Source: Catenulispora pinistramenti (GTDB taxonomy: Bacteria > Actinomycetota > Actinomycetes > Streptomycetales > Catenulisporaceae). Taken from it: 55,140 nt of DNA. A program made the position numbers and the translations under genes. Shown here piece by piece: positions 32,880 to 54,719 of this stretch; positions within the stretch are counted from its first letter, which is position 1; the number at the start of each line of letters is the position of its first letter. The stretch is taken from contig NZ_JAAFYZ010000051.1 in NCBI RefSeq assembly GCF_018274385.1, forward strand, positions 1-55,140, read 5' to 3'. The notes beneath the pieces were generated by a model. The model was not told the origin of the DNA. It did no database searches and worked only from the letters and a program-made list of their open reading frames with translations.

Positions 32880-33830
32880 CTACGGCGCTGAAGACGGCCA
32901 GGCCTGTGTAAGTACCCTCATATCCCCGGGGCTCAGGGGTAGGCAGCCCGCGGCGAGGAGTGGGCCGACCTGGTCGGCGCGGCTGGCGCTGGCGATGGCG
33001 GCTGTCACGCCGGGCTGGGCGGCCAGCCAGGCCAGGGCGACCGTGCTCGGCTGCGCGTCGTGGGTCTCCGCCACCTTGATCAGTGCTTCGAGTGTCGGTC
33101 GGCTACGCGGGTCCGCCAGGTAGGCGCTCACCCGAGTAGAGCGCGCCCCGGGCGCGGGCGTGGTGTCCATCGGGTACTTGCCGGTCAGCAGGCCTGAGGC
33201 GAGTGCCGCGTACGGGGTGACGGCGAGATTGTACGCGGCGGCCACGGCTGCCGACTCGCTCTCGTAGGGGTCGCGGTGGATGAGGTTGTAGTGCGGTTGG
33301 AGGACTTCGTAGGCGGCCAAGTTCTCTCGGTGGGCGAAGTCGAGGCAGGCGGTGAGCCGGGCCGGGGTGATGTTGGAGGCGCCGAGGTGGCGTGCCTTGC
33401 CCGCGCGGACCAGTGCATCCAGTGCCGTCACTATTTCCTCGACGGGGCGGGTCGGGTCGTCGCGATGGCTGAAGAAGACGTCGACGTGGTCGACGCGTAG
33501 CCGCTTGAGGGAGCGGTCCAGTGCTGTTCTCACAGTCGTCGGGGCCAGGCCGGTCAGTGGCGGGTTCGCGCCGGCCTTGGTGGCGAGCAGGATCCGGTCG
33601 CGGTTGGCTCGGCGGTGCAGCCAGGTGCCGATGATGGTTTCCGATTCGCCGCCGTTGTTGCCCTCGGCCCAGGCGGAGTAGCCGTCGGCGGTGTCCACGA
33701 AGGTGCCGCCGGCTTCCGTGAAGGCGTCGAGGATGGCGAACGACTCGGTCTCGTCCGCGGTCCAGCCGAAGACGTTGCCGCCTAGGGCGACTGGCAGGAG
33801 ACCGGTGAAGATGTCAGGGGTTGTGTTCAT
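32880..33830 (-). CDS. aldo-keto reductase
   Basis: ATG 33830, with GGGAGCC just upstream, gives 316 residues; a longer frame exists but its extra N-terminus has no family signal. The AKR tetrad is present: D46, Y51 (DTADGYSAW), K85 (LATKAG) and H122 (FFSHRDD). NADPH-binding sequence lies near the C-terminus (AAIASASRADQVG). These enzymes reduce aldehydes and ketones, often sugars. It is the last gene of the long operon and overlaps the LigA-like gene by 17 bases, so it belongs to the pathway, perhaps as a ketosugar or polyketide ketone reductase. The substrate cannot be told. Confidence 0.9.
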   Translation of the reverse strand: MNTTPDIFTGLLPVALGGNVFGWTADETESFAILDAFTEAGGTFVDTADGYSAWAEGNNGGESETIIGTWLHRRANRDRILLATKAGANPPLTGLAPTTVRTALDRSLKRLRVDHVDVFFSHRDDPTRPVEEIVTALDALVRAGKARHLGASNITPARLTACLDFAHRENLAAYEVLQPHYNLIHRDPYESESAAVAAAYNLAVTPYAALASGLLTGKYPMDTTPAPGARSTRVSAYLADPRSRPTLEALIKVAETHDAQPSTVALAWLAAQPGVTAAIASASRADQVGPLLAAGCLPLSPGDMRVLTQAWPSSAP

Positions 33831-34140
33831 GGCCGGCTCCCATGCGGTGGCTGTAGACGTCTGGGTCGAGGCCGAACAGACGGAATGTGGCCAGCCGGAC
33901 CAGCAGGAGCGGGTGCACGCCGGCATCGAGCAGCGCCGGGACGTCGCCGTCGAGCAGCAGCCTCTGGTCGGCGTCGGACAGCGGCGGCAGCGGCGCCGGA
34001 AGCGAGCGCAGCGTGGCGGCCGGGTTGGTGTGCAGGCCGGTGCGCAGCTGCTCGTCCTGGGAGGCGCGATAGCACAGCCAGTTGAGCGGGTAGGCGCCGG
34101 TCAGTCGGGTGATGTCAGCGTGCCCAGGCAGCGAAGGCAT
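33814..34140 (-). CDS. LigA-like small subunit of an extradiol dioxygenase
   Basis: The 108-residue helical protein resembles the LigA alpha subunit or cap of class III (LigAB) extradiol dioxygenases: a basic N-terminal helix, LPPLSDADQRLLLDGDVPALLDAG and LLLVRLATFRLFGLD, matching the helical pattern that covers the LigB active site. The similarity is by shape and by its position next to a LigB-type gene, so the call is moderate. It overlaps the LigB gene by 26 bases and the AKR gene by 17, so all three are coupled. Confidence 0.65.
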   Translation of the reverse strand: MPSLPGHADITRLTGAYPLNWLCYRASQDEQLRTGLHTNPAATLRSLPAPLPPLSDADQRLLLDGDVPALLDAGVHPLLLVRLATFRLFGLDPDVYSHRMGAGHEHNP

Positions 34141-34936
34141 GGCCTTCTCCGTCCTCGTAGTCGAGATGGGCGAGGGTCAGGCCGGCGGCGGTCACCGCGC
34201 CGAGGGCGGCGAGCCAGCTGAGCAGTTCGCCGGCCACGGTGCCGGCGTCGTCCAGGATGGCCGGCGTGGACTTGTGAACCAGGTCCTCGACGCTGCCGGC
34301 GCGCAGCATGGCGGCGACTTCGCCGGCCCAGTCGGGGCGCGGGATCGCGTAGGAGTGCCCGGGAGGCACCCGTCTGCTGCCAACGTCAAGGGAGAAGCTG
34401 CCGCTGGCGATCACGCCCACGCGCAGGTCCGGCGGCCAGGCCGCGACGGCGTCGGCGACGGCCCGGCCCAGGGCGAAGCACCGGGCCGCGGAGGGGAAGG
34501 GCGCGACCATGTCGTTGATGTGGATCGGCGCGATCGGTCGCCGTGCCGAGGAGTCCAGGAAGTGCAGCGGGACGGCGACCCCGTGATCGGCGACCCCGTT
34601 CACCACGAGTGAGGGGTCGAAGTCCCTCGGCACGAGGTACTGGTACAGGTGCGTGGCCAGGCCCGAGTGTACGTGCACGGCGGTCTGGGGCACGCCCGGT
34701 ACGTCGTCGATCGGGCAGATCAGCGTGGGTCCGGTGGTGATCGCGAAGGTCGGCCAGTGGTCGAGGAAGAACGCGTTGATGTGGTCGCAGTGGAAAACGC
34801 ACAGGACGTCTGGGCGCTCGTCGTCCAGGACGCGCCGGACCGCGGCATAGCGGGCCGCGATGCCGGTGCCCTCGGGACGCGCCGCCAGCTGAGGGAAGAC
34901 GGGAGTGTGCGGCACACCGGCGGCGGCAACGATCAT
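34115..34936 (-). CDS. LigB-type (class III) ring-cleaving or related dioxygenase, catalytic subunit
   Basis: From ATG 34936 (a GTG lies six bases earlier) the product has 273 residues. The LigB fold begins with MIVAAAGVPHTPVF, whose H10 is the first iron ligand position, and continues with CVFHCDHINAFF, where H52 fits the second. A late acidic residue in HLDYEDGEGHAFAAW could be the third. In the family the non-haem iron enzyme opens catechol-type rings with oxygen. In this cluster the substrate could be an aromatic starter or tailoring intermediate; no aromatic biosynthesis gene is visible. The frame is open upstream across the neighbouring gene but that portion is not coding. Confidence 0.8.
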   Translation of the reverse strand: MIVAAAGVPHTPVFPQLAARPEGTGIAARYAAVRRVLDDERPDVLCVFHCDHINAFFLDHWPTFAITTGPTLICPIDDVPGVPQTAVHVHSGLATHLYQYLVPRDFDPSLVVNGVADHGVAVPLHFLDSSARRPIAPIHINDMVAPFPSAARCFALGRAVADAVAAWPPDLRVGVIASGSFSLDVGSRRVPPGHSYAIPRPDWAGEVAAMLRAGSVEDLVHKSTPAILDDAGTVAGELLSWLAALGAVTAAGLTLAHLDYEDGEGHAFAAWAR

Positions 34937-34944
34937 CGCCACGG

Positions 34945-36003
34945 TCAGGAGGCCGGGATCTGGCCGGGGCCGGGCAGTCCGGCGGCGGCGTAGAGGGACC
35001 CGAGCAGGCGGACCATGGCGACCCCGGCCTCGGGGCGCACGTCCATGGCGCCGCCGGTGGCGACCGCGGCGGCGAAGTCTGCGATCTGCCGGCGGTGTGA
35101 GATCCCGTAGTAGTCGATGCCGGGCGCTTCGGCGGCGACGGCCGATTGGTCGCACTCCGCAGCCCGACGTTCCAGCTCGGGGTTGCCGGTCGCGCGGTGC
35201 AGGCGCGCGGGGTGGTCGATGTCGAGTTCGACGGTGCCTTCGGTACCGACGAACTCCAGGCGGGTGCGCCAGGTGACGGTGCTGCCGATGGTGACGGTCA
35301 GCGTCACCGGGACCGGTCCGGCGGTGAGCAGGGCGCCGATTGTGTCCTCGGTCTCCAGGGCGCTGTACAGATCCCCGGCGCTGGCCGCGGCTGCGCGGAC
35401 GGTGAGGTCGCCGCAGACGGCCTGCGTCACGTCGAGGCAGTGGTAGCCCTGGTTGATCAGGGCCGAGCCGCCCTCGCCGCGCCAAGTGCCGCGCCAGTAG
35501 CTGTCGGAGTAGTACACCTCCTCACGGCTGGCTTCCAGCGACGCGCGCACGAACCGCAGCCGGCCCAGAAGCCCGGCCTTGAGCCACTCTCGCACGCCGA
35601 CGACCAGCGGGTCGTAGCGATGCTGGGAGACTGTCGTGAGGATGCGCCCCCGCGATCGTGCCGTTTCCAGGAGGTCTTCGGCGTCCGCGGCGGACAGGGC
35701 AAGGGGTTTCTCGACGATCACGTGCTTGCCAGCCAGCAGGGCACGGCGCGCCAGCGCGGCGTGCTGCGCGTGGTCGACGGCGATCGACACACTGGTCACG
35801 GCCGGATCGGCGAGGACGAGTCCGTAGTCCGCTGTGGCCTCGGCGATGCCGTGGACCGCGGCGAAGCCGGCGGCGACGGCCGGGTCGCGGTCGCAGGCCC
35901 AGGCCAGGGTCCAGCCTTCGCCGAGCGCCCGGAAGGCGTCGACGTGATTGGGGGCGACCCGGCCGCAGCCGACGATGGCGTGCGACAGCGGCGGACTGTG
36001 CAT
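34945..36003 (-). CDS. Gfo/Idh/MocA-family oxidoreductase
   Basis: ATG 36003 has GGAGGAACG directly upstream and gives 352 residues. The Rossmann start (HAIVGCGRVAPNHVDAFRAL) and the EKPLAL motif (HVIVEKPLALSAADAEDLL) identify the family, with the second domain holding the substrate-side ALINQGYHCLDV. Members oxidise or reduce sugars, inositols and sugar nucleotides with NAD(P). In antibiotic clusters they often make keto sugars. It lies between an SDR and the LigB gene, and with the split transketolase and the glycosyltransferases it suggests carbohydrate-derived parts. The exact substrate is unknown. Confidence 0.9.
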   Translation of the reverse strand: MHSPPLSHAIVGCGRVAPNHVDAFRALGEGWTLAWACDRDPAVAAGFAAVHGIAEATADYGLVLADPAVTSVSIAVDHAQHAALARRALLAGKHVIVEKPLALSAADAEDLLETARSRGRILTTVSQHRYDPLVVGVREWLKAGLLGRLRFVRASLEASREEVYYSDSYWRGTWRGEGGSALINQGYHCLDVTQAVCGDLTVRAAAASAGDLYSALETEDTIGALLTAGPVPVTLTVTIGSTVTWRTRLEFVGTEGTVELDIDHPARLHRATGNPELERRAAECDQSAVAAEAPGIDYYGISHRRQIADFAAAVATGGAMDVRPEAGVAMVRLLGSLYAAAGLPGPGQIPAS

Positions 36004-36025
36004 CGTTCCTCCGAGGTGTGCGGGT

Positions 36026-36805
36026 TCAGACATAACCGTTGACCAGCCATCCGCCGTCGACGGCGAGCGTGTGGCCGTGGATGTAGGCGGCATCCTCAGA
36101 GCACAGGAAGAGCACCGGTCCGGCGACGTCGGCCGGGCGGCCGCGGCGCGCGGCCGGAATCCTACCGACAATCCGGTCCTCGCTCAGGGTGCCCGCGGCC
36201 ACCGCCGGGTGCGGGGTCTCGATCTGGATCATGCCGGGGGCGACGGCGTTGACGTTGATCCCGTGCCGCGCCCACTCCAGGGCGAACGCGCGAGTCAGTT
36301 GCAGCACGCCGCCCTTGCTCGCGGCGTAGGCGGCCCGTTGCGGGAACGCGGTGAACGACAGCAGCGAGGCGAAGTTCACAACCTTGCCGTATCCGCGTTC
36401 GATCATGCCGGGCGCCACGCCCCTGGTGACCAGGAACGTGCCGAGGACGTTGGTATCCAGCAGCTCGCGGACCTGCGCGGTGGCGAAGGACGTACTCGGT
36501 CCGAGCGAGAACGTGCCGGCACAGTTGACCAGGATCTCGACCGGCCCGCGGGCCTGCTGTGCGGTATCGATCAGCCGCGTGACGTCCGTCTCCACACCGA
36601 CGTCGCAGGTCACCGCGAGCGCCTTGGCACCGGTGCCGGCCAGCTCCGCGGCGACCGCCGCGATCTGGTCGGCGGTGCGGCTGGCGACCGTGACGGTCGC
36701 GCCCTCGGCCGCGAACGCGAGCGCGATCACCCGGCCGATGCCGCGGCCGCCGCCGGTGACCAGCACGTGGCGGCCCTCGAACCGCCGGAGTCGGCCGTCG
36801 GTCAC
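36026..36805 (-). CDS. short-chain dehydrogenase/reductase (SDR)
   Basis: GTG 36805 overlaps the upstream methyltransferase stop as GTGA and gives 259 residues. The classical SDR motifs are complete: TGGGRGIG for NAD(P), VNCAGTF, catalytic Ser in NFASLLSF, and YAASK. The C-terminal NVNAVAPGMIQIETP and LAVDGGWLVNG match the FabG-like group. It can reduce a beta-keto group, which would suit a PKS that lacks its own ketoreductase domain, or oxidise a sugar alcohol. The choice between these is open. Confidence 0.92.
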   Translation of the reverse strand: MTDGRLRRFEGRHVLVTGGGRGIGRVIALAFAAEGATVTVASRTADQIAAVAAELAGTGAKALAVTCDVGVETDVTRLIDTAQQARGPVEILVNCAGTFSLGPSTSFATAQVRELLDTNVLGTFLVTRGVAPGMIERGYGKVVNFASLLSFTAFPQRAAYAASKGGVLQLTRAFALEWARHGINVNAVAPGMIQIETPHPAVAAGTLSEDRIVGRIPAARRGRPADVAGPVLFLCSEDAAYIHGHTLAVDGGWLVNGYV

Positions 36806-37440
36806 GCTCCCGCCGCCTGTCCGCGCTTGCGGAACAGGCCGAGCCAGTGCCACTGGTCGGGACGGGCCTGGGTCGGCAGGTTGCGGAACCGGCGCAGTTC
36901 CTCGACTTCGAAACCGGGCAGGAACGCGCCCAGGACGTCGTCGGAGGTCAGGCGGATCGGGCCGCTGCCGGGGGTCATCCGGTCAGAGAAGCCGACCATC
37001 ACGAACAGCCCGCCGGGCTTGAGGATCCGGGCTACCTCGGCCGCATAGAGGGTCCGCGCCTCGGGGCGGACGTTGTGGTAGATGAACGAGTCGTTGACCA
37101 CGTCCACGGATTCGGCGGGCAGGGTCGTGGCGAGGATGTCGGCCTCGATCAGCTCCAGCTCGACGCCGTACAGCTCGGACAGGTGGCGTGCGGCGCCGAG
37201 CGCGGTGGCCGAGTTGTCGACGCCGGTGACGGTCATCCCGTGGCGGGCCAGGAAGGCCGCCGCGACTCCGGCGCCGCAGCCGAGGTCGACGACGCGCTGG
37301 CCCCGGGCGATCGTCCCGTCGATCACCAGCTCGGCCAGGACCGGGCTGACCGTGCCGGTGAACCACGAGATCTGGCCCAGCGGGTTCTCCTCGTAGAGCT
37401 TGGCGAATCCGTTCACCCAGCGGTCGGTGAATGCCTGCAT
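36802..37440 (-). CDS. class I SAM-dependent methyltransferase
   Basis: The 212-residue protein has motif I VVDLGCGAGVAAAFLARHG, an acidic motif II end (VTGVDNS), and LKPGGLFVMVGF. It belongs to the Methyltransf_11/25 type. It sits directly downstream of the FkbH/FkbI/ACP/FkbK genes, the position held by the O-methyltransferase FkbG in methoxymalonyl-ACP operons, so it may methylate the hydroxyl of hydroxymalonyl-ACP. Classical FkbG belongs to a different methyltransferase group, so it may instead act on the scaffold or a sugar. There is a 13-base gap to the FkbH stop and a GTGA overlap with the SDR. Confidence 0.9.
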   Translation of the reverse strand: MQAFTDRWVNGFAKLYEENPLGQISWFTGTVSPVLAELVIDGTIARGQRVVDLGCGAGVAAAFLARHGMTVTGVDNSATALGAARHLSELYGVELELIEADILATTLPAESVDVVNDSFIYHNVRPEARTLYAAEVARILKPGGLFVMVGFSDRMTPGSGPIRLTSDDVLGAFLPGFEVEELRRFRNLPTQARPDQWHWLGLFRKRGQAAGA

Positions 37441-37453
37441 GGTTCGTATCTCC

Positions 37454-38515
37454 TCAGTCGGTCGTCAGGGTCAGGAACGCCGGGCGGGTACGGGGCGCGT
37501 CGGCGGCCAGTTCCAGAAGCAGGGTCTGGCCGGCGACCGTCTCAGCTGCCTTGTCAGTGCTCTGTCCGGCGCTGAACCCGGCCAGGCGGTAGACCGTGTA
37601 CATGGGCCGGTTGACGTCGGTGTGCCGGAAGTCGGCGGTCAGGCGCAGCCCGCGCTGGTCGGCCTGCGCCGCGAGGTGGCTGATGACCGCGCCACCGACG
37701 TTGCGGCCCATCACGCGGCAGGACATCAGCAGCAGGCGGATCCGCCACTGGTCGTCGGAGGCGGTCAGCATCACCAGACCGACGGTGCCGTACTCGCCGA
37801 AGACGTCGCGCAGGGAGACGACCAGCAGCGTGTTCTCGGGCCGGGCCATCAGGTTCAGCAACTGCTCCCGCGAGAAGGTCAGCCCGGTGGTGTTGAGCTG
37901 GTTGGTACGTACCGTCAGTTCGGCGGCGCGCGCGAGATCGTCCGGGGTCGCCGCCCGGACCGACAGACGTATGTCGAGCGAGCGCAGGAATTCGTTGCGC
38001 GGGCCGGTGAATCCGTCCTCGTATTCGCGGCGCCTGGCGTCCTGCCGGTAGCGGACACGCCGCTGGGCACCGTCGGCGGTGACGATCGCCGGGGTCAGGT
38101 CCGGCCGGTCCAGCAGGATGGCGACGTCGGCGGCGTCCACGCAGCGCACCGGCAGCGCCGAAGCCACCTCGGCCCGCTCGAACGGCGAGTCGTCGATGAA
38201 CAGCAGCGTGTCGACGCCGATGTTGATCTCTTTGGCAATCCGTCGCAGCAGCACGGATTTCGCGTCCCACGACGCCTGCGGAAACAGGAAGTAGTCGGTC
38301 AGCGCGAAGTGATCCAGCTGCTCTCGGACGGCGCGGGGGTCGTTCTTGCTGGCGATTGACTGCAGGATGCCGCGCTCGTCGAGGGCGCGCACAGCGTGTA
38401 CGGCGGCGGCCCGCAGCACGACCCGTCCGTCCTCGGCCAGGACGCCGTCCCACAGCGTGTCGTCCAGGTCCCAGACCACGCATTTGACCATCGGCCGGTC
38501 CACGGTCCCGGTCAT
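37454..38515 (-). CDS. fkbH: FkbH-like HAD protein, 1,3-bisphosphoglycerate to glyceryl-ACP
   Basis: ATG 38515 overlaps the previous stop (ATGA) and gives 353 residues. The HAD motif is intact: D16 and D18 in VVWDLDDTLWDG, with further motif IIASKND and DDSPFERAEV. The C-terminal GNAT-like half (VGLVMLTASDDQWRIRLLLMSCRVMGRNVG) completes the FkbH family. In known pathways FkbH dephosphorylates 1,3-bisphosphoglycerate and loads the glyceryl group on an ACP. The adjacent ACP, acyl-CoA dehydrogenase and 3-hydroxyacyl-CoA dehydrogenase make the full glyceryl-to-hydroxymalonyl set. Alone it could also mean a tetronate, but FkbI and FkbK argue for the hydroxy/methoxymalonyl route. Confidence 0.93.
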   Translation of the reverse strand: MTGTVDRPMVKCVVWDLDDTLWDGVLAEDGRVVLRAAAVHAVRALDERGILQSIASKNDPRAVREQLDHFALTDYFLFPQASWDAKSVLLRRIAKEINIGVDTLLFIDDSPFERAEVASALPVRCVDAADVAILLDRPDLTPAIVTADGAQRRVRYRQDARRREYEDGFTGPRNEFLRSLDIRLSVRAATPDDLARAAELTVRTNQLNTTGLTFSREQLLNLMARPENTLLVVSLRDVFGEYGTVGLVMLTASDDQWRIRLLLMSCRVMGRNVGGAVISHLAAQADQRGLRLTADFRHTDVNRPMYTVYRLAGFSAGQSTDKAAETVAGQTLLLELAADAPRTRPAFLTLTTD

Positions 38516-39651
38516 CGCGACCGCCGGTCCCCGGGCCTGGACTCCGCCCGCCACCGGGCGAGCACCTGGTCGGCCAGCAGGTCCTGAACCAGCTGGGTGT
38601 TGCCTTCGATGACCTCCATGACCCGGGCGTCGCACACCCGGCGGTGCACCGGGCCGTCCTCGACCAGACCCTCGGCGCCGTGGATCTGGGCCGAGACGCC
38701 GGCGGCCACAGTGGCGGCGCGGCTCGCGGCGAGCTTCGCGGCCAGCGTTTCGGACACCGCCCATTCGGCGCGGGCGTCCAGGGCGTCAGCGGCGCTCTCG
38801 GCGAGCAGCCGGGCACCGCGGGCGGCGACGACGGCGTCGGCGACCAGGCCGCGCAGCAGCTGGTGGTCGCGTAGCCGACGGCCGGTGGGGCCGGGTTGGT
38901 CGAGCCGGGCCAGCGCGGCGTTCAGCGCGGTCTCGGCCAGGCCGACGGACCCGAACGCCACGCACATCCGGCCCAGGACCAGCGCGCGCCCGCCGACCTG
39001 GGTCAGGCCGAAGCCGGGCCGTCCGACCAGGCGTTCGGGGCCCACTTCGCAGCCGTCCAGGTCCAGGATCGCCAGGCGCGAGGCGCGGAACCCGGCGGTG
39101 ACCGCTTCGGGGGTGATCCGCACGCCGGGGTCGTCGCGGCGGACGGCGAACGCGGCGTCGCCATCGGGGGTGTTCGCGAAGACCAGGAACAGGCCGGCGA
39201 TCTGCCCAAAGCTGACCCAGCGCTTGGTGCCGGTCAGGCGCCAGCCGTCCGGCGCCGGCTCGGCGGCGGCCCGCAGTGCGCGCACGTCGCTGCCCGCGGC
39301 GGCCTCGGTCAGGGCGAAGGCCGCGACCGTGCCCGCCGCGGCCAGTTCGGCGAGTTCGGCGCGCATGGGGACCGAACCTGAGCGGTTCAGGGCACTGGTG
39401 ACCATACCGTGCACGGTCAGCAGGCTCTGTAACCCGCAGGAGTGCTGGGCGACCAGCCGATTCGCCTCGCCGTACGCCCGATGGCTCCACGCGGTGCCAC
39501 CGTGTTCGGCCGGCACCATGGCGCCGAGCACTCCGGTGTCGGCCAGCCCGGATGCCACGTCGTCGGGAAAGGCTCCGGCCCGCTCCCACTCGGCGATCCG
39601 GTCGGCGTACTTGTCCTGGAGCAGGTCGCGCAGCCGGTCGGTCGCGGTCAC
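38512..39651 (-). CDS. fkbI: FkbI-like acyl-ACP dehydrogenase
   Basis: The 379-residue protein has acyl-CoA dehydrogenase features: the flavin segment FALTEAAAGSDVRALR, WVSFGQIAGLFLV, and the C-terminal QIHGAEGLVEDGPVHRR and VMEVIEGNTQL. Start GTG 39651 overlaps the ACP gene by four bases. In methoxymalonyl-ACP pathways FkbI oxidises the hydroxyacyl-ACP carbon in step with FkbK to give hydroxymalonyl-ACP. The context, ACP upstream and FkbH downstream, supports that role strongly. It is cytosolic and binds FAD. Confidence 0.92.
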   Translation of the reverse strand: MTATDRLRDLLQDKYADRIAEWERAGAFPDDVASGLADTGVLGAMVPAEHGGTAWSHRAYGEANRLVAQHSCGLQSLLTVHGMVTSALNRSGSVPMRAELAELAAAGTVAAFALTEAAAGSDVRALRAAAEPAPDGWRLTGTKRWVSFGQIAGLFLVFANTPDGDAAFAVRRDDPGVRITPEAVTAGFRASRLAILDLDGCEVGPERLVGRPGFGLTQVGGRALVLGRMCVAFGSVGLAETALNAALARLDQPGPTGRRLRDHQLLRGLVADAVVAARGARLLAESAADALDARAEWAVSETLAAKLAASRAATVAAGVSAQIHGAEGLVEDGPVHRRVCDARVMEVIEGNTQLVQDLLADQVLARWRAESRPGDRRSR

Positions 39652-39908
39652 GAGCCGCCGGTCTTCCGGGCGACGAGGCCGACGATGGCGTTGACGCTGT
39701 CGAAGTTGCTCAGCTCCAGGTCTTCGTCAGCTACGGCGATGTCGAAGCTTTGCTGGAGATGGTCGATCAGTTGGACCACGACCAGGGAGTCGAGCAGGCC
39801 GCCGGTGATCAGCGGTGTGTCGTCGATTCCCTCGACGTCATCTAGGAATCGTTCGAGGTAGTCCAGGACCACCGAACGCGCCTCGTCGGCGGTGACCCGC
39901 ACGGGCAT
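39648..39908 (-). CDS. fkbJ: discrete acyl carrier protein (FkbJ-like)
   Basis: The 86-residue protein has the phosphopantetheine site S41 in GGLLDSLVVVQLIDHL and the normal four-helix size, with an acidic helix II/III region. It lies between FkbK-like and FkbI-like genes, so it carries the glyceryl, then hydroxymalonyl or methoxymalonyl, unit for the PKS. Its stop overlaps the FkbI start, and its start is one base from the FkbK stop. Confidence 0.93.
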   Translation of the reverse strand: MPVRVTADEARSVVLDYLERFLDDVEGIDDTPLITGGLLDSLVVVQLIDHLQQSFDIAVADEDLELSNFDSVNAIVGLVARKTGGS

Positions 39909-39909
39909 G

Positions 39910-40764
39910 TCAGTGCTCTCCCTTTGTCTGGTAGGTGTAGAAGCCGTGGCCGCTTTTGCGGCCGAGGCGGCCCTGGCCGACCATCTCCAGCAGGACCGGC
40001 GCCGGAGTGAACCGGTCCTTACCGTGGTATCCGGCGAGCACGTCGAGCGTCCGCACGACGGTGTCGACGCCGATCAGATCGGCGGTGCGCAGCGGCCCGG
40101 ACTTGTGTCCGAGACAGCCGCTGAACAGCCGGTCGATCTGCGCCGGGGTGGCGACGCCTTGCGCGCACAGCGCGGCGGCCTCGTTGACGAACATCATCAG
40201 GCAGCGGTTGATGACGAACCCCGCCTCGTCGCGCACCACGACGCCGTGTTTGCCCATCCGGCCGAGCAGCGCCCGCAGCCGGTCCATCGCCGCGGCGTCG
40301 ACGAAGTCGGTCCGCACGACCTCGACGGTGTCGATCAGCGCGACCGGGTTCATGAAGTGCGCGCCGACTACGCGGGCCGGGTGCTCCGTGGCCAAGGCCA
40401 GCCTGCTGATCGGCACTCCGGAGGTGTTGACCGCGACGACGCAGTCCGGGGCGACGACCGCGTCGATCGCGCGGTGCACTTCCTCCTTGAGCGCGATGTC
40501 CTCGGTGACGTTCTCCACCACGACTTCGCAGAGCCCGAGGTCGGCCAGGTTGCCCGTGAAGGTGATCGGGGCCTGCTCGGCCGGGCCGCGTCGGAGCCGG
40601 GTCAGCCGGTCCGCGGCGTCGATCGCCCGGCGGGCGTCGGCCAGGGCCTCAGGCGAGGTGTCGTGCAAGACCACGGGGATGCCCGCGCGGGCGACGGCGT
40701 GTGCGACGCTGCTGCCGATCACCCCGGCGCCGACCACGCCGACGGGATTCACCGGTCCGCTCAT
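39910..40764 (-). CDS. fkbK: FkbK-like 3-hydroxyacyl-CoA dehydrogenase family protein
   Basis: ATG 40764 overlaps the PKS stop as ATGA and gives 284 residues. The N-terminal GVVGAGVIGSSVAHAVARAG is the NAD-binding fold; VAVNTSGVPISRL and HFMNPVALIDTVEVV, with the C-terminal helical KSGHGFY, complete the family pattern. In the FK520-type pathway FkbK oxidises the alpha-hydroxyl/aldehyde intermediates on the ACP. Frame extension upstream of 40764 lies inside the PKS gene and is not coding. Confidence 0.93.
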   Translation of the reverse strand: MSGPVNPVGVVGAGVIGSSVAHAVARAGIPVVLHDTSPEALADARRAIDAADRLTRLRRGPAEQAPITFTGNLADLGLCEVVVENVTEDIALKEEVHRAIDAVVAPDCVVAVNTSGVPISRLALATEHPARVVGAHFMNPVALIDTVEVVRTDFVDAAAMDRLRALLGRMGKHGVVVRDEAGFVINRCLMMFVNEAAALCAQGVATPAQIDRLFSGCLGHKSGPLRTADLIGVDTVVRTLDVLAGYHGKDRFTPAPVLLEMVGQGRLGRKSGHGFYTYQTKGEH

Positions 40765-47154: not shown

Positions 47155-48121
47155 CGAGCTCTCCGATCCATCGGGGTTCCGCGCGTTGGAAGGCGCGCAT
47201 GAGCGGCAGGTAGAACAGGTGGCCGGTGAGCCTGCCCTGCTTCTCCACCCGGCGGTGCAGCCACAGACAGGCGATCGGTAACAGCCGGGCCGCGCTGACC
47301 GCGGACTGACCCGTGGCATGCGCATAGCGGCGCAGCGCCGACCGTGCGGCGGACCGGAACGGACCGTCGCTGTGCAGTATCTGCTCGCCGAGCCAGTCGT
47401 GGCCGCGGGTGCGGTAGTCCGGGTAGATGAGCAGGGCGCTGGTCAGCACGGTGTTGAGCAAGTCCACGACCGGCAGTCCGGTCTGCTGGTAGTCCTCCCA
47501 GTCGATCAGTGAAAGCCGGCCGTCGGCGGAGTTCCAGCGGATGTTCCATGGTCCGAGGTCGCCGTGCATCGGGCCGATCCAGGTTGGGGTCAATGCTTCG
47601 AGCGCCGCGTCACCGGCGGTTTCGATGAGGTCACCGAGATATCCGTGGGCCACCGCCCTGCCGTCGCCCAGTCCTGCCGCGCCGCCGGTGTGCAGCGGCA
47701 GCATCGCGTCCACAGCCTGTTCCAGCAGCTTGCGAAGATCGTCCGCGCTTTCCACGGCCGTCAGCGCCTCGGGGAAGTCGCGGTCCGGCACCCAGGTCAT
47801 GACGAACCCGCGCTCCAGGTCGTGCACCAAGGTCGGGCGCCGCACGCCTGCCGGAGCCGGACCGCGCAGGATCTCCCGTTCCCGGTCCACCATGGTGTCG
47901 GCGGCGTCCAGGGGAACCTTGGCCACCAGGGCGGCGCCGTCCGATGCCAGGCAGGAGACGAACAACCGCTGCCGTTGCCTGCGGGCGCTGTCGGGGATCC
48001 ACCAGGCCAGGTCTCGGGCGTTCGGCGGCCAGCCGGAGTCGGCCCGCAGTCGCACCAAGGCCTGTTCGACCGTCGGGATCATGTTCCGGTCCGTGCCCGG
48101 GGCGGTGGCCGGCATGCTCAT
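47147..48121 (-). CDS. APH-like small-molecule kinase
   Basis: The 324-residue protein starts at ATG 48121, overlapping the glycosyltransferase stop (ATGA). The kinase core reads MHGDLGPWNIRW (catalytic HGD) and LIDWEDYQQTG (metal Asp). The N-lobe has the lysine strand ALVAKVPLDAADTMVDREREI. Members phosphorylate hydroxyls of antibiotics, sugars or choline-like compounds. In this operon it could activate a sugar, phosphorylate the product, or protect the producer. It is distinct from the two kinases at 5168 and 5980. Confidence 0.88.
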   Translation of the reverse strand: MSMPATAPGTDRNMIPTVEQALVRLRADSGWPPNARDLAWWIPDSARRQRQRLFVSCLASDGAALVAKVPLDAADTMVDREREILRGPAPAGVRRPTLVHDLERGFVMTWVPDRDFPEALTAVESADDLRKLLEQAVDAMLPLHTGGAAGLGDGRAVAHGYLGDLIETAGDAALEALTPTWIGPMHGDLGPWNIRWNSADGRLSLIDWEDYQQTGLPVVDLLNTVLTSALLIYPDYRTRGHDWLGEQILHSDGPFRSAARSALRRYAHATGQSAVSAARLLPIACLWLHRRVEKQGRLTGHLFYLPLMRAFQRAEPRWIGELDD

Positions 48122-49365
48122 CGAGCCGCCGTCTGGAACAGCTCGTCCACCACATCGGGCAGCGGTCGGCCACCGAGCCGCGCGCCCAGCTCGTCGATCC
48201 CGGCCGCGCGCTGCCGGGAGTCAAGGGCGACGAAGGTCTCGATCCATTCGTTCATCATGTTCCGGAACCGCTTGTACAGCCACGGATCCGCACTGATCCG
48301 CTCGGCTATCTCGTTGATCGCCGCGGTGCCCTCGAAGTCGTCCGGCGGCACCGGGTGTTCCGGCATGACCGCGGACAGCCGGGCGCCGATCCGGTGGAAC
48401 AGCGTGCCTCCTAGGCTGTCGAGATTGAAGACGTGCCCGAAATGTTGCTCCGGCAGCGCCATCGGGAACTGGCGCAGCGCCACCGACTCGTGGATCGCTG
48501 TCAGGCCTGGCGTGATCATGTAGTGCGAGGCCGTCGCGACGGTCCGCAGGAACTCGCGGTGCGAGAGCATTCGCAGCCGGGCGCGGCTCGAACCGACGCT
48601 CACCTGCCGCTCGCGTCCGTCGCCGAACGCGCCGCAGCACACCGTCACCTCGGCGAAGCGCTTGCAGTCGGACAGCAGATCCGGGATCCAGCGGTCGAAG
48701 AGTTTCAGGTACGCGTTGTTGACGTCGAAGTCGAGCAGGAAGTTTTTGAACCCGCCGATGTTGATCAGCAGGTCGCAGTCCGGTCCGGTGCCCTTGGCGG
48801 CCTGGGCCAGGGCGTCGGCGTCGACGATCGACCCGGTCAGGTGCAGGCGCCCGACACCGAGGTCGGCGAACTGCCCGATCCGCTCGCGCACGCCCTGGAA
48901 GTTCTGGACGACGCTGTGGGTGGCGAGCATGTGCGCGGCGAGGATCTGCTCGTGCGGCCGCAGCGACTGGAAGTGGGACAGCACCCGGTCCACCGGGCCA
49001 CGTGGCGCCCGCCGGCACAGCTCGGCCAGGTCTGCCAGCGGGCGATCGTGCTGCCAGAAGCTGAACAGGCTGTCGACCATGACTACCGGGCGGTTGGCGG
49101 CGAAGGCCCGCATCACCAGGTCGGCGTCCATCACCGACACCACCCAGTCGCTGGCCTCCAGCAGGTCCGAACGTGGTCCGCCGCCGGGCTCGCCGGTGTC
49201 GTAGAGCTCGTCGAAGGCCTCAGCGTTGCGCCTGGCGTACAGCGAGGCGACGGTGTCGCCGCAGAACACCCGGTGGTGCTGCGGGATCAGCAGGGAGAGC
49301 GCGGTGAGCTTGGAGATCGGGCCGAAGCCGCAGCTCTGGGCGCCCATCAGGATCTTCATGGTCAT
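48118..49365 (-). CDS. glycosyltransferase-like protein (GT-B appearance)
   Basis: ATG 49365 overlaps the transketolase stop as ATGA and gives 415 residues. The N-terminus MKILMGAQSCGFGPISKLTALS resembles the glycine-rich start of GT-B enzymes, and the C-terminal half has ASHYMITPGLTAIHESVALRQFPMALPEQHFGHVFNL, where the conserved acceptor/donor helix of UDP-sugar transferases lies (glycine, then Glu and Pro). I do not recognise a named subfamily. There is no membrane segment. It follows the transketolase pair and is likely to place a sugar on the scaffold. The donor is unknown. Confidence 0.7.
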   Translation of the reverse strand: MTMKILMGAQSCGFGPISKLTALSLLIPQHHRVFCGDTVASLYARRNAEAFDELYDTGEPGGGPRSDLLEASDWVVSVMDADLVMRAFAANRPVVMVDSLFSFWQHDRPLADLAELCRRAPRGPVDRVLSHFQSLRPHEQILAAHMLATHSVVQNFQGVRERIGQFADLGVGRLHLTGSIVDADALAQAAKGTGPDCDLLINIGGFKNFLLDFDVNNAYLKLFDRWIPDLLSDCKRFAEVTVCCGAFGDGRERQVSVGSSRARLRMLSHREFLRTVATASHYMITPGLTAIHESVALRQFPMALPEQHFGHVFNLDSLGGTLFHRIGARLSAVMPEHPVPPDDFEGTAAINEIAERISADPWLYKRFRNMMNEWIETFVALDSRQRAAGIDELGARLGGRPLPDVVDELFQTAAR

Positions 49366-50321
49366 CCCCGCGTGCGATCGGTGTCGGACAAGGACGAGAT
49401 CACGTGGTCCGCCGTGATCCGGTAATGCGCGAGCAGTTCGCCGCGATCGCCGAGCGGCGGGTAGTCGTCGCCGACCGCGTGCGTGGCGAACCGTCCGGTC
49501 CAGCCGCCGGCCAGGGCGCGGGCGGCGCTGGCGCCGATCCCGCCGGTCTCGAGGTGTTCCTCGACGGTCAGCACGGTGCCGACACCGGCGGCCAGGGCCA
49601 CCAGCCGCTCCCGTGGGAAGGGCTTGACGGCGGTCAGGGCCAGCACGCCCAGCTGGCGACCGGTGTCCGCGAGCCGGTCGGCGGCGTCCAGCGCGATGCC
49701 CACACCGATCCCGGTGGCCACGGCCAGCGCGTCGCCAGGCGGGCGCAGCAGCAGGCCGCCGGCAGCGTCGAACGGCTTGTCCGGGTCGTGCACGATCCGG
49801 TCCTCGCGGGCGCCGAGACGCACGTAGGCCGGCCCCGGCCCGGCCAGGGCGGAACGCACCGCCCAACAGGCGTCGATCGCGTCGGCCGGGCAGTACACGC
49901 GGGTGTACGGCAGGGCGGCGAAGAAGCCGAGGTCCTCCGGACAGTGGTGGGTCGGGCCCAGAGTGCCGTAGCCCAGGCCGCCGCCGACGCCCACGAACGT
50001 GACATTGAGCCCCGCGTTGCACACGTCGTTGCGGATCTGTTCGGCGGCCCGGCGCACCAGGAACGGCGCCATGGCGCAGACCACCACCCGACGCCCGGCG
50101 CGGGCCAGACCGGAGGCGACGCCGACCAGGTTGGCCTCGGCGATGCCCACATCCACATACCGCTCCGGGTGGTGTTCGCGCACTCCGGCGGCCAGGGCGT
50201 GGCCGTCCGCGCCGAGGACCACCAGCCGCGGGTCGGTGTCGGCGGCCTCGAGCAGAACGTTCGCCACGGCCGGGCGCATCGGCGCGTAGCTTGGCTGTCC
50301 GGCCGCGATGACAGTGTTCAT
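49362..50321 (-). CDS. transketolase-like protein, C-terminal (pyrimidine and C) subunit
   Basis: The 319-residue protein corresponds to the second half of transketolase: APMRPAVANVLLEAADTDPRL, the conserved DVGIAEANLVGVASGLARAGRR that contributes the catalytic Glu near the thiamine, and VGGGLGYGTLGPTHH. It overlaps the N-terminal subunit gene by four bases, so the two are made in equal amounts and form the enzyme together. Transketolases move a two-carbon ketol unit from a ketose phosphate. A split pair inside a cluster is known from rifamycin (Rif15A/B), where a C2 fragment is attached to the antibiotic, which is a useful parallel here. Confidence 0.93.
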   Translation of the reverse strand: MNTVIAAGQPSYAPMRPAVANVLLEAADTDPRLVVLGADGHALAAGVREHHPERYVDVGIAEANLVGVASGLARAGRRVVVCAMAPFLVRRAAEQIRNDVCNAGLNVTFVGVGGGLGYGTLGPTHHCPEDLGFFAALPYTRVYCPADAIDACWAVRSALAGPGPAYVRLGAREDRIVHDPDKPFDAAGGLLLRPPGDALAVATGIGVGIALDAADRLADTGRQLGVLALTAVKPFPRERLVALAAGVGTVLTVEEHLETGGIGASAARALAGGWTGRFATHAVGDDYPPLGDRGELLAHYRITADHVISSLSDTDRTRG

Positions 50322-51148
50322 GCCGGTTCCTGTTCCGGTCCGGCGGCCAGCGCCGTGAGTGCGGCCGCGTGCTGGTGCGAGGTCAGGTGGGCGTGGTGGA
50401 AGGCCGGATCGTGTTCCATGAACGGCACGCCGCGTCCCTTGACCGTGTGCGCGATGACCACGGTCGGCAGGTCTTCGCTGGCGAACGCCTCTTCCAGCGT
50501 GCGGCGTAAGGCGGCACCGTCATGGCCGTCGGCCTCGATCACCTGCCAGCCGAAGGCCCGCCATTTCGCAGCCAGCGGTTCCAGAGCGAGCACTGATTCG
50601 GTGGGCCCCTCCTGCTGCAGACCGTTGCGGTCGACGACGGCCACCAGGTTCGCCAGCGCGTGGTGTGCGGCGAACATCGCCGCCTCCCAGACCGAGCCCT
50701 CGTCCAGTTCCCCGTCGCCGAGCACGACCACGGCCTTGCGGTCGCCGCCGTCCAGGCGCGCGGCCAGGGCTAGGCCGGCGCCGATGGACAGGCCGTGGCC
50801 GAGGGCGCCGGTACCGGCCGCGACACCCGGGGTGGTGTCGAGCGGGTGCCCGGCGCGCGGATCATCGAGCCCCTCGACGCCGAATCCGGCCAGCACGGAG
50901 TACAGACCCCAGACCGCGTGCCCCTTGCTCAGGATCACGTCACCGCGCTCCGGCCGCCGCGGCCGGGCCGGGTCCAGGCCGAGCGCGTCGTACACGGCGA
51001 CCAGGATGTCGATCACCGACAGCGACGCGCCGAGGTGCACGGGCCGAGTGGCGGACAGGTCCACCAGGCGCCTGCGAGCCCCGGCGGCGATGTCCGCCAG
51101 GCTCTGTTCGGACCGGGTGCCGGGCGGTGACGTCAGGCTCTCGACCAT
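50318..51148 (-). CDS. transketolase-like protein, N-terminal (thiamine diphosphate) subunit
   Basis: The 276-residue protein has the TPP-binding GDGELDEGSVWEAAMFAAHH...N motif (GDG to VVDRNGLQQEG), the substrate-side SKGHAVWGLYSVLAGFG, and TGALGHGLSIGAGLALAARLDG. With the next gene it makes a two-subunit transketolase rather than the single 650-700 residue form of central metabolism. A GGATG(A) start region follows a 340-base gap that may hold a second promoter. The donor is probably a pentose or hexose phosphate, and the acceptor a pathway compound; the acceptor is inference. Confidence 0.93.
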   Translation of the reverse strand: MVESLTSPPGTRSEQSLADIAAGARRRLVDLSATRPVHLGASLSVIDILVAVYDALGLDPARPRRPERGDVILSKGHAVWGLYSVLAGFGVEGLDDPRAGHPLDTTPGVAAGTGALGHGLSIGAGLALAARLDGGDRKAVVVLGDGELDEGSVWEAAMFAAHHALANLVAVVDRNGLQQEGPTESVLALEPLAAKWRAFGWQVIEADGHDGAALRRTLEEAFASEDLPTVVIAHTVKGRGVPFMEHDPAFHHAHLTSHQHAAALTALAAGPEQEPA

Positions 51149-51488: not shown

Positions 51489-52688
51489 TCAGTCGCGCTT
51501 CGTCAGTGGCTGCGGGCCCAGCAGGTCGGCAGCGAATCCGGCGATGACGCCGGGCGGGATGTCGGACACGGCGCTGACCCCCCAGACCTCGTCGTCGATT
51601 GCGCGGCCGTAGGCGTTGATGTAAAGGCCCACGTCGGTCAGCGCCATCATCTGCGCCGCGGGAGTCGCCACGCTGTGGTGCCGGGCCGAGCCGGTCAGCC
51701 ACTTCAGATGGCTGAATCGTCCGTGCAAGGCGATCACCTGCGGGCCGGTGCCGTCCGGGCGAACCGCGAGCGCCGCGAGATGGGTCAGCCCGGTGTCATG
51801 GCCGATGACCAGTTCGCCGGCGGCGAAGATGTCGACGCAGTCCGCGGCTTCCGCGTCCAGCACGAGATCCACGGGAAACGGCGCGGATCTCGCCGCCGCT
51901 TCGTGCTCCTTCTTGTTCGTCACGAGCGTGAAACGCCAGTCAGACCGGTGATCGAGGTCCGCGAGCGCCTGCGCCACCCTGATCAGACCCTGGGCGCCGT
52001 AGTCCTGCCTGCTGCCGTAGGCACTCGTCGTCGCCACGAGAACGGCCCGTCGGGGCTCCGCCTCAGTGACGCTCGAGTGATAGCGCGGCGCCGGGGCGGT
52101 GCCCTCGGTGAGACGCACCCCCAGCCGCTGCTCGATGTCCAGGTAGTACCTCATCGGCAGTGTCGAATGCACCTCGACGTCGTCGCCGAGCAGGTCGAGC
52201 CACGGCGGGACCAGGCTTGCGGACCCGGGTCCCCCTTCGTCGCGGTCGTCATCCCAGACCGGTGTCCTGGTGGGACCGACCTTGATGCGCACCGGGGACG
52301 GGCCCGGGCTGACCACGCGGCTCACGGCGGCCGGCTCGCACTCGGCGAATGACAGTTCACTGCGTTCCATGAGCTTGTGGCGTGGGCCGGAATACAGAAG
52401 GGGCGACACGTTCCGGCCGATCGCCGTCACCGCGTCTGAGACCGCGCGGGCAGCCGCCATCTGCAGCAACAGATCGCCCAGCTTGAACGAGGTGGCGTCG
52501 CTGTGCGGATCGTTGACGAACTCCATCGACCAGCCGCTGTCCGCGATGCGCTCGAGCAGACGTGAGGGGCTGGCCGGCCCTTCACCGGCGGCCCGCCGAT
52601 AGGGGAGGCGGACGCCAAGCGGAGCGGTTTGCCTGGGAACGATGAGTCTGCCTCCCCGATGGCATTTCACTCCGTCGATTCTCCACAT
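51489..52688 (-). CDS. glycosyltransferase family 9-like protein
   Basis: ATG 52688 with AAGGG about seven bases upstream gives 399 residues; a longer frame has no support. The C-terminal half holds ELVIGHDTGLTHLAALAV, the heptosyltransferase-like nucleotide-sugar motif of GT9 proteins, followed by VIALHGRFSHLKWL. The N-terminal half (SATSFKLGDLLLQMAAARAVSDA) is the acceptor side. GT9 enzymes use ADP-heptose or similar donors. Its neighbour encodes a DUF4254 protein, a family I associate with glycosyltransferase clusters. It probably works in attaching a sugar to the product or carrier. Confidence 0.75.
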   Translation of the reverse strand: MWRIDGVKCHRGGRLIVPRQTAPLGVRLPYRRAAGEGPASPSRLLERIADSGWSMEFVNDPHSDATSFKLGDLLLQMAAARAVSDAVTAIGRNVSPLLYSGPRHKLMERSELSFAECEPAAVSRVVSPGPSPVRIKVGPTRTPVWDDDRDEGGPGSASLVPPWLDLLGDDVEVHSTLPMRYYLDIEQRLGVRLTEGTAPAPRYHSSVTEAEPRRAVLVATTSAYGSRQDYGAQGLIRVAQALADLDHRSDWRFTLVTNKKEHEAAARSAPFPVDLVLDAEAADCVDIFAAGELVIGHDTGLTHLAALAVRPDGTGPQVIALHGRFSHLKWLTGSARHHSVATPAAQMMALTDVGLYINAYGRAIDDEVWGVSAVSDIPPGVIAGFAADLLGPQPLTKRD

Positions 52689-52736
52689 TCTGATGCCCTT
52701 CCGACGGTCCGGCGAAGGTCTTCCCGCCGCCACGTG

Positions 52737-53294
52737 TCATCCGTACGATTTGAGGATCCGCCAGTCGGGAATCCGGCGCCGGCGTGAGCCGACGTCGCCG
52801 AGGAGCACGTCGTATGCCTCTCCCAGCTCGGCGAGCTGCCGTGTGGCCAGCCGGCTTCGGCGGGTCTGGACGGAGTCTTCGAAAGCTGATTCCTTGGCGC
52901 CCAGCTTCTGGCACCGGACCCAGGCGATGGCCAGCCGGTCGACGATGCTTCCGAGGGTTTCGGTGTGCAAGGGGGCGTCATCGGCTTGGCGGACATGCTC
53001 GGCCACCCAGTCGTCGACCTCGTCGATGAAGCCGCTGCGCCGCATGTTCATGTCGTCGATGACGCGCTTGAGGCCGGCCAGTGCCGCCGCGTCGTTCCTG
53101 GATATCCGGGACAGGTCCTCGGCCTCCCACTGCCGCAGGTGATGGCCGCCGAGCTCCCGGGCCACCTTCAGCAGGGGGCAGCCGTCCGCGGTCTGCGCCG
53201 AGTCCCACGGCGCGCCGAAGCCTTCGATGATCGCCTTGCCGCCGGGAAGCACATCGACGCCCGACTCCGAAACGGGCCAGCCGCGTTCACCCAT
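52737..53294 (-). CDS. DUF4254-family protein
   Basis: Several ATGs are available; 53294 has the best distance from GGAGG, giving 185 residues, while 53306 gives 189. The segment LAGLKRVIDDMNMRRSGFID and HTETLGSIVDRLAIAWVRCQ matches the DUF4254 pattern (helical, two short charged helices, then an IxDRLxI helix). Function of the family is not established. It overlaps the MFS gene by eight bases and precedes the GT9-like gene, so it belongs to the same transcript and probably supports glycosylation. Confidence 0.8.
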   Translation of the reverse strand: MGERGWPVSESGVDVLPGGKAIIEGFGAPWDSAQTADGCPLLKVARELGGHHLRQWEAEDLSRISRNDAAALAGLKRVIDDMNMRRSGFIDEVDDWVAEHVRQADDAPLHTETLGSIVDRLAIAWVRCQKLGAKESAFEDSVQTRRSRLATRQLAELGEAYDVLLGDVGSRRRRIPDWRILKSYG

Positions 53295-54582
53295 CATCGC
53301 CTCCATCCATCAGCATGTTGGTACCGGTGCGAGCGCCGGCCACGACCGCCGTCGGGCTGTCGCGCCCGGCCGGGCCGGCCCGCCGGGCGTGCCGACGGGT
53401 GAGCAGCAGGGTCAGGACCGTGGCGCAGCCGCTGAAGCCGGCCAGCAGAAACAGGACCTCGGAGATCGGGAAGTAATGGGCCAGTGGGATCATCGCGGCG
53501 CCGGACAGCGGGATGCCGCCGTAGTCGACCAGCGTCGTGTAGGAGGTGATCCGTGACAGAACACTCATATCGATGCGCAGCTGGACCGCGGTCAGCATGA
53601 TCACTTGGAAGTACTCGGCCGCCGCGCCGTCCAGCGCGATCACCGCGAACAGCAGCGGATAGGGGGCGGACATCCCGAGTGTCGTGAGCACGGCGATCTG
53701 CATCAGCAGGCTGATCTGGCCGACCCGCAGCGGGCTGCGCGGTCCGGCCCGCGCCGCGAGCAGCGCCCCGCCGAGCCCGCCCAGCGCCCGTGCCGCCAGG
53801 AGCAGTCCCAGACCGGCCGGCCCGCCGAGCTGTTTTGGGGCGATGACCGGCGCGATGATCTGGTAGGCCGCGACCATGCAGACGACATAGACCAGGTTCT
53901 GGGCCAAGGTGCCGACCAGCCACCCCCGGCTCCGGAACTCGGTCCAGCCTTCGCGCAGCGCCTTGGCCAGCGAGGTGTACACCACACGGCGGGATCGCGC
54001 GACGGTGATCCGCAGTAGCGGAACGATGCTGACCAGATACAGCACCCCGTTCACCGCGATCGTCACCGCCGGGCCGGCCAGGCCGACCAACCCGCCGCCG
54101 ACCGCCGCCCCGACGACCATCAGGCTGGTCCGGCTGATCGTCAGAAGCGCCTGCGCGCTTGCGACCTGTCCGGTCTCGACGATCTGCACCACGAATCCGC
54201 CACCGGCAGGCAGCGCCACCGCGTTGGCGAGTCCGGAGACGACCGCCAGCAGCAGGAAGGATCCAAGGGTCGCCGAATGTGTCACCAGCGTGACGGCCAT
54301 GGCGATCTGTGCCAGGGCGGATACGACGTTCGCCACGGCCAGCATGAACATCCGTTGGTATCGGTCGCCCAACACCCCGCCGACGAGCACGAAGAGGATC
54401 ACCGGGATGTTCGTCGCGGTCACCACGCTCGCCACCGCCCCGGCCGACTTGTCCACCCTCAGCACCGCGAAGGGTACGGCGGTCGGACCGATCGCCAGGG
54501 TGAGCGCGGTGATGCTGCGGGCGGTGAAGTAGAGCCGGTAGTTCCGGTTCCGCCGCAGGAGCTCGGGCGGCCGGATCAACAA
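53287..54582 (-). CDS. MFS exporter
   Basis: The 431-residue protein has about 12 hydrophobic segments, among them GPTAVPFAVLRVDKSAGAVA, NIPVILFVLVGGVLGDRYQR (the MFS loop GDRxxR) and GSFLLLAVVSGLANAVALPA. It belongs to the MFS_3/enterobactin-exporter-like group. The start appears to be TTG at 54582 or 54579, overlapping the stop of a short upstream frame. It is first in the long operon and is the likely exporter and self-protection gene for the product. The final 35 residues are hydrophilic and cytosolic. Confidence 0.9.
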   Translation of the reverse strand: MLIRPPELLRRNRNYRLYFTARSITALTLAIGPTAVPFAVLRVDKSAGAVASVVTATNIPVILFVLVGGVLGDRYQRMFMLAVANVVSALAQIAMAVTLVTHSATLGSFLLLAVVSGLANAVALPAGGGFVVQIVETGQVASAQALLTISRTSLMVVGAAVGGGLVGLAGPAVTIAVNGVLYLVSIVPLLRITVARSRRVVYTSLAKALREGWTEFRSRGWLVGTLAQNLVYVVCMVAAYQIIAPVIAPKQLGGPAGLGLLLAARALGGLGGALLAARAGPRSPLRVGQISLLMQIAVLTTLGMSAPYPLLFAVIALDGAAAEYFQVIMLTAVQLRIDMSVLSRITSYTTLVDYGGIPLSGAAMIPLAHYFPISEVLFLLAGFSGCATVLTLLLTRRHARRAGPAGRDSPTAVVAGARTGTNMLMDGGDDG

Positions 54583-54719
54583 GACCCGGCCGACAGCGTT
54601 CGAGGCCGGACGGTGACCGGCGGCCGACGCGGTTCGGGACGATGACGTCGATGCTCCGGGCCCGCTCCGACCACGCGGGCACGACCGGGCCCGAGCGTCA
54701 GCCAGTGATCAATGGGCAT
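54576..54719 (-). CDS. possible 47-residue leader frame coupled to the exporter
   Basis: ATG 54719 follows AAGGAAG by about five bases, a better ribosome site than any at the exporter start. The frame ends in TGA overlapping the TTGTTG start region of the exporter. The product is rich in Pro and Arg (GPEHRRHRPEPRRPPVTVRP) and resembles no family. It could be a regulatory leader whose translation feeds the exporter, or a frameshift could hide the true exporter N-terminus. Confidence 0.35.
   Translation of the reverse strand: MPIDHWLTLGPGRARVVGAGPEHRRHRPEPRRPPVTVRPRTLSAGSC

Follow-up and report, generated by a model that had tools for sequence, protein, structure and literature searches.

The closest described relatives of the locus reported here are the gene clusters for amipurimycin and miharamycin, nucleoside antibiotics with a high-carbon sugar. 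The amipurimycin (amc) cluster comes from Streptomyces sp. SN-C1 and its amcB-amcH genes form cispentacin (PMC10698177). According to a second study, the polyketide synthase (PKS) acts early toward the C9 pyranosyl core, and MihI converts GMP and UDP-glucuronic acid (UDP-GlcA) to guanylglucuronic acid (PMC11188666). A review describes the proposal that, after an oxidoreductase has acted, transketolases move a hydroxyacetyl group onto the keto sugar in both pathways, and mentions 13 further candidate sequences, every one from Streptomycetes (PMC12247030). Here, we analyzed a 55,140-nucleotide stretch of DNA from Catenulispora pinistramenti (NZ_JAAFYZ010000051.1; hereafter the window), which is one entire contig, ending at position 55140, of an 11.46 Mb genome in 671 contigs. 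Twenty minus-strand open reading frames (ORFs) occupy positions 54582-32880 of this window. Judging from gene content and order, this operon probably encodes a high-carbon-sugar nucleoside pathway that follows the amipurimycin/miharamycin route, on a branch from which the peptidyl part is missing; an orphan-looking hybrid of nonribosomal peptide synthetase (NRPS) and PKS genes thereby becomes a predicted nucleoside pathway. Since the family of the window genome differs from that of the five homologous genomes described below, its transketolase pair would be an independent one.

Related clusters were located through the product of fad (45658-47154), an FAD-dependent oxidoreductase of the Rossmann FAD families (profile match to 3nlc, 1.2e-7). 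A scan of a species-genome collection with six peptide patterns of this protein, in which more distant clusters can be missed, identified two loci, in Streptomyces tailanensis (78% identity) and Streptantibioticus silvisoli (65%). A profile built from three fad proteins then identified clusters in 5 of 392 genomes of one genus, presumably Streptomyces (G534, G626, G498, G550 and G628; G136 and G290, mentioned below, belong to this genus too). When fad was compared with 394 genomes of the class, 337 had some match; among the matches listed nearly all were short stretches of the FAD-binding motif, and no other long match exceeded 31% (two longer ones reached 30-31%). The genus-wide profile search and this class-wide single-protein search scored three to four candidates per genome. 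No plasmid match to fad was obtained at E 1e-40.

Comparison of these clusters (matches with E up to 1e-8, one kept per gene) showed a common core of 13 genes in the order tkN, tkC, cga, aph, fad, a_pcp, pks, hcdh, acp, acad, fkbh, mt and sdr, which is identical in the window, G498 and G534. G626 keeps the first 12 of these genes (tkN to mt), and G550 has gfo to pks in window order up to its contig end, which lies inside pks, so that counts for hcdh to sdr are out of seven clusters. The S. tailanensis locus carries 16 of the 20 window genes, from x108 to tkN, in window order (56-89% identity), more than chance would explain, and the S. silvisoli locus carries 19 of the 20, rearranged.

The link to amipurimycin comes from G498, in which four genes within about 15 kb of tkN have AmcH (655.5 bits; cut-off 370), AmcF (560.6; 325), AmcE (278.9; 140) and AmcC (780; 600) as their best NCBIfam matches. 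G550 likewise encodes an AmcF match (561 bits) and an AmcC homologue 95% identical to that of G498. The core of these two amipurimycin-type clusters is about 46-48% identical to that of the window; both have cispentacin genes, aminotransferase IV, ATP-grasp, DUF3500 and a second short-chain dehydrogenase (SDR2), all of which the window lacks, whereas G498 has no gt9. G534, which we infer to be a miharamycin-type cluster, has the 13 genes in window order plus gfo, lig and x108, and differs from the window in carrying YqcI/YcgG (PF08892, 3.3e-54), ATP-grasp, PheS-like and aminotransferase IV genes; the YqcI/YcgG and ATP-grasp genes would fit the hydroxyarginine of miharamycin. Because amipurimycin-scoring genes lie beside a collinear 13-gene core, the locus is best read as a high-carbon-sugar nucleoside pathway. 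The original prediction had matched the operon to no known product and had named beforehand a characterized cluster of the same gene order as the finding that would count against it; for the 13-gene core, that gene order was found. Its picture of a small glycosylated molecule gives way as well: the glycosyltransferase and transketolase genes, together with those for GFO and PKS, most likely cooperate in building a single high-carbon-sugar nucleoside and do not decorate a small polyketide.

A tree of 11 concatenated proteins placed the window, S. tailanensis and S. silvisoli on a branch of their own (64-70% identical), with G534, G626, G498 and G550 at 45-48% identity to the window and G628 more distant at 42%. 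All five of the other clusters carry aminotransferase IV and ATP-grasp genes, and none of the three on this branch does (for ATP-grasp, as close copies, and for the window as far as its end at 55140; another part of the S. tailanensis region contains a 39-residue ATP-grasp match). Across whole genomes, aminotransferase IV gave no match in the window genome or S. tailanensis and a single 33% match in S. silvisoli, on another contig. Lacking a cluster aminotransferase and a close ATP-grasp, the branch is predicted to make a product with neither the amine nor the amino-acid tail.

The second line of evidence is the adenylation (A) domain of a_pcp (43724-45664; PF00501 and PF13193, followed by the peptidyl carrier protein (PCP), PF00550). 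In all eight clusters, the amipurimycin-type ones included, motif A4 is four residues shorter than usual (F-RE versus FDxSVWE), with the usual Asp among the missing residues, and the usual YGPTE reads YTL[TSA]E. We compared 21 distinct A-like segments: 8 gapped, all from these clusters, 10 canonical and 3 of neither kind (AMP-ligase-like). The gap occurs in 0/10 canonical domains, a count that serves as an illustration and not as a survey, since the A4 patterns were written after the gap had been seen and the 10 domains come from few genomes (7 from the window genome). The Asp of motif A4 normally holds the alpha-amino group of the substrate, and its loss fits a domain that accepts a uronic acid. 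Wang et al. (JACS, 2020) reportedly found that an A domain of the miharamycin pathway accepts a complex nucleoside and that the high-carbon sugar arises by a hybrid NRPS-PKS route. These observations bear on the earlier view of the operon, in which the A domain takes an amino acid, the glycosyltransferases decorate, and the product is a small glycosylated, perhaps phosphorylated NRPS-PKS molecule with a methoxymalonate-derived unit. The domain calls fit that view, the A domain scores unmistakably as an NRPS domain (AA-adenyl-dom, 344 bits; cut-off 317.4) and the methyltransferase is conserved, but with the amine-holding residue gone from 8/8 domains and the core collinear with clusters carrying amipurimycin genes, we regard it as very unlikely.

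It should be noted that the A-PCP frame opens further upstream in the seven other clusters than in the window. The S. tailanensis and S. silvisoli frames carry about 160-170 residues ahead of the stretch that aligns with the window A-PCP start; we read these residues as a putative remnant of the end of a condensation domain, and Pfam finds nothing in those of S. tailanensis. The structure model of the window A-PCP was poor (mean predicted local distance difference test (pLDDT) 66.5, predicted template modelling score 0.52) and was not used.

Based on these comparisons, we propose a pathway for the branch, in which we infer the base, the carbon positions and all substrates from sequence. The pathway would start with cga (48118-49365), a GT-B glycosyltransferase and proposed nucleoside uronate synthase, which would join a nucleobase and UDP-glucuronate into a nucleoside uronic acid. 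The cga model (mean pLDDT 87.6) has a GT-B fold, its best Foldseek rows are UDP-sugar glycosyltransferases, and it aligns with YojK in complex with UDP over 328 residues (Z 23.8, root-mean-square deviation 4.6; VIA-align). The atypical A domain would then activate the C6' carboxylate and load it onto the PCP.

Extension would depend on four genes that lie together as in FkbHIJK-type hydroxymalonyl/methoxymalonyl-ACP (acyl carrier protein) sets: fkbh (37454-38515; glyceryl transferase, TIGR01686 266.5 bits, cut-off 146.65), acad (38512-39651; acyl-CoA dehydrogenase family, FkbI-like, PF00441, PF02770, PF02771), acp (39648-39908; stand-alone carrier protein, FkbJ-like, PF00550 27.3 bits) and hcdh (39910-40764; 3-hydroxyacyl-CoA dehydrogenase family, FkbK-like, PF02737, PF00725). 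In contrast to such sets, these genes stand here beside a one-module PKS and nucleoside-type genes. Their products would supply hydroxymalonyl-ACP, which the ketosynthase-acyltransferase-ACP (KS-AT-ACP) module of pks (40761-43727; PF00109, PF02801, PF00698, PF00550, with active-site motifs) would condense once to give an alpha-hydroxy-beta-keto thioester. The AT domain matches many PKS ATs, with the hydroxymalonyl-linked ZmaA sixth in the list, and given this mixture no extender was assigned from it. The LigAB pair and sdr (36026-36805; short-chain dehydrogenase (SDR), PF13561, PF00106) would process the extended end. The product of gfo (34945-36033; GFO/IDH/MocA oxidoreductase, PF01408 82.5 bits) is proposed to oxidize C3', after which a split transketolase would add the two-carbon hydroxyacetyl branch; the latter is encoded by tkN (50318-51148; N-terminal half, PF00456 112.7 bits, ThDP (thiamine diphosphate)-type GDG...N motif) and tkC (49362-50321; C-terminal half, PF02779, PF02780). 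Finally, gt9 and the DUF4254 gene may decorate the product and the MFS protein may export it.

Most of the individual gene calls of the original prediction agree with these domain data. Pfam and NCBIfam support a hybrid with one A-PCP and one KS-AT-ACP protein, hence a single extension module, and neither of the two megasynthase proteins gave a match to a condensation, a reductive or a thioesterase domain. The FkbHIJK-type set, the split transketolase, the kinase (aph, 47147-48121; APH family, PF01636 30.6 bits) and several reductases (SDR, GFO/IDH/MocA and aldo/keto reductase families) are confirmed in the same way. The two glycosyltransferase-like proteins stand on weak NCBIfam matches (neither has a Pfam match at 0.001) and, for cga, on the modelled fold. 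As for the LigAB-like pair, the LigB half is borne out by lig (34115-34942; PF02900 91.1 bits), while the LigA name of x108 (33814-34140; no Pfam match) reflects its place beside lig and its conservation there. The methoxy unit is unproven, although mt (36802-37440; methyltransferase, PF13649 and PF08241, 89% identity in S. tailanensis) is kept in all seven testable clusters.

The eight clusters also connect steps that had no assignment, making them testable. The gfo gene and the split transketolase occur together in seven of the eight and are both absent from the G628 region, which holds an unrelated GFO-family gene; this most distant cluster is perhaps an unbranched relative. A second pattern sets the LigAB pair against DUF3500 and SDR2. 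Intact lig and x108 are found in the window, S. tailanensis, S. silvisoli, G534 and G628, whereas DUF3500 with a close SDR2 is found only in G626, G498 and G550. G498 keeps fragments of lig and x108 (L054, 18515-18977) next to its DUF3500 and SDR2, which would fit a replacement of one system by the other there; G550 and G626 keep none. This alternation suggests that the two systems are two solutions for the same step, although eight clusters are few and the pattern requires two or more changes on the tree. Literature on DUF3500 included, judged by title, no paper on this step.

What that step might be is suggested by the carbon count and by the LigB site. A C9 sugar would require the loss of one extender carbon (six carbons from the uronate, one net from the extender and two from the branch), and we hypothesize that LigAB would remove it by cleaving the chain in its enediol form. 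In type III extradiol dioxygenases (LigB), the catalytic residues include a His after the GxxS motif. In the lig alignment, which leaves out the fragmentary G498 (n=5), the first His, the DH motif and the C-terminal Glu are conserved, and the position of the catalytic His after GxxS is Leu or Gln in 5/5. We offer, tentatively and as a possibility we ourselves rate below even, a fuller scenario: a non-peptidyl, PKS-extended nucleoside branch in three genera, in the present case outside the presumed Streptomyces group, in which an altered-site LigAB would cleave the acyclic enediol of the hydroxymalonyl-extended chain and trim one carbon to leave an un-aminated alpha-keto acid, this step having passed to DUF3500 and SDR2 in amipurimycin-like clusters.

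Several points weigh against the assignment to a high-carbon-sugar nucleoside pathway. The cga protein is 51-53% identical to glycosyltransferases of other loci, in G136 and G290, versus 36-41% to those of G498, G550, G534 and G626, so the base or the donor may differ. This proximity to two loci with an ACP-AMP-ligase gene, together with a CGA_synthase (TIGR04467) equivalog score far under its cut-off (42.9 versus 300 bits), would suit a cga whose acceptor is neither a purine nor a pyrimidine base, the product then being a high-carbon glycoside and not a nucleoside; as the remaining core, including the A-domain gap, is common to amipurimycin-linked clusters, we consider this unlikely. A dedicated base supply does not appear to be conserved either: S. 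tailanensis and G498 alone have a LOG-type phosphoribohydrolase gene next to the cluster, G534 has no LOG match, and the best one in the window genome (48%) is on a different contig. We know of no methyl group in these antibiotics, which, set against the conserved mt, implies that at least one step is missing from our model. All three branch genomes have ATP-grasp relatives at other places, none above 36% identity, and the contig ends 0.5 kb upstream of mfs. This contig end, the insertion-sequence genes that adjoin the cluster, and the aminotransferase and ATP-grasp genes carried by relatives elsewhere would all suit a decayed or silent peptidyl nucleoside cluster that lost these two genes with the contig end or by deletion. 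However, the other two branch members, whose regions are longer, lack these genes too, the window genome and S. tailanensis have no aminotransferase match, and the ORFs are intact with small gaps, which makes decay highly improbable. Lastly, PMC12247030 describes the transketolase step of miharamycin and amipurimycin as still unproven, and the split-gene transketolase, with its preceding oxidoreductase, as not studied in vitro. The reading as a nucleoside pathway without the peptidyl part remains the one we prefer.

The limits of the operon were also reconsidered. The 17 genes from tkN to akr overlap or are spaced by at most 13 nt. A single 22-kb transcript, as originally proposed, is doubtful, because 340 bp separate gt9 from tkN and because in S. 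silvisoli the duf4254-gt9 pair is oriented opposite to tkN. The proposed extent holds for the ORFs, which run from 54582 to 32880; its upper end at 54719, read by eye, is the ATG that opens a short frame (about 47 codons), and the stop codon of this short frame overlaps the MFS start at 54582. The gene caller was crude and the conclusions are based on homology searches; for fad, pks, hcdh, fkbh and gfo the start was shifted by one to two codons by eye, which altered no conclusion.

At the upstream end lie mfs (53287-54582; MFS exporter, PF05977/PF07690; 56% identity in S. silvisoli), the DUF4254 gene (52737-53306; PF14063 89.9 bits; 53%, S. silvisoli only) and gt9 (51489-52733; glycosyltransferase-like, weakly similar to heptosyltransferase I, TIGR02193 17.7 bits, under the cut-off of 185.3), which was matched in two of the seven genomes searched, those of the window and S. 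silvisoli. The S. tailanensis region, though on the same branch, lacks all three. At the downstream end, akr (32880-33830; aldo/keto reductase, PF00248 196 bits) was matched in neither the S. tailanensis nor the S. silvisoli region (E up to 1e-5) and may therefore be a passenger.

The S. tailanensis region has in addition, compared with the window, a LOG gene, a phosphopantetheinyl transferase-like gene and an AMP-ligase/condensation-like protein. This last one (L038, 2087-5551) is a 1154-aa protein encoded beside tkN, with an AMP-ligase-like start and a C-terminal part that resembles the condensation-type segment of S. silvisoli; it is possible that it acylates the product. The G628 cluster (G628:C30, L059-L060) carries aminotransferase IV, ATP-grasp, a separate A-PCP-TE protein and an O-methyltransferase. 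In L012 (G136:C40) and L013 (G290:C1), the cga relatives neighbour an ACP-AMP-ligase-like gene, and the remaining cluster genes are missing; this may represent another, undescribed setting for this glycosyltransferase family.

Literature searches on the names S. tailanensis and S. silvisoli found a genome announcement and no published description of their clusters, and one combining transketolase, FkbH, nucleoside, PKS and glycosyltransferase cluster found nothing. Among papers on hydroxymalonyl, methoxymalonyl and transketolase, none concerned this cluster, judged by title or the start of the abstract. The transketolase-containing clusters of azinomycin, ficellomycin, anisomycin and vazabitide were dropped as candidates once the gene order pointed to amc.

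Finally, we considered the genomic setting of the cluster. The G+C content is 69-72% from 34 kb onward versus 62-67% in the first 32 kb, with a step near 33 kb, and cga was found in 2 of the 14 genomes of its own family, the window genome and one with a 33% match over about 117 residues; the step and this rarity suggest that the cluster was gained horizontally. A phage-type integrase gene and two integrase-core (transposase-like) genes (8850-10013, 27131-27931 and 30479-31519), the last of them just past the 3' end of the cluster, lie between the low-G+C part and the cluster. Taken with the G+C step, they make the cluster look like part of a mobile island. The same window encodes on the plus strand (15020-26158) a 3712-aa product that looks like a polymorphic-toxin-type protein: it combines RHS repeats, laminin-G-like domains and DUF6531 with a DNA/RNA non-specific endonuclease domain at its C terminus.

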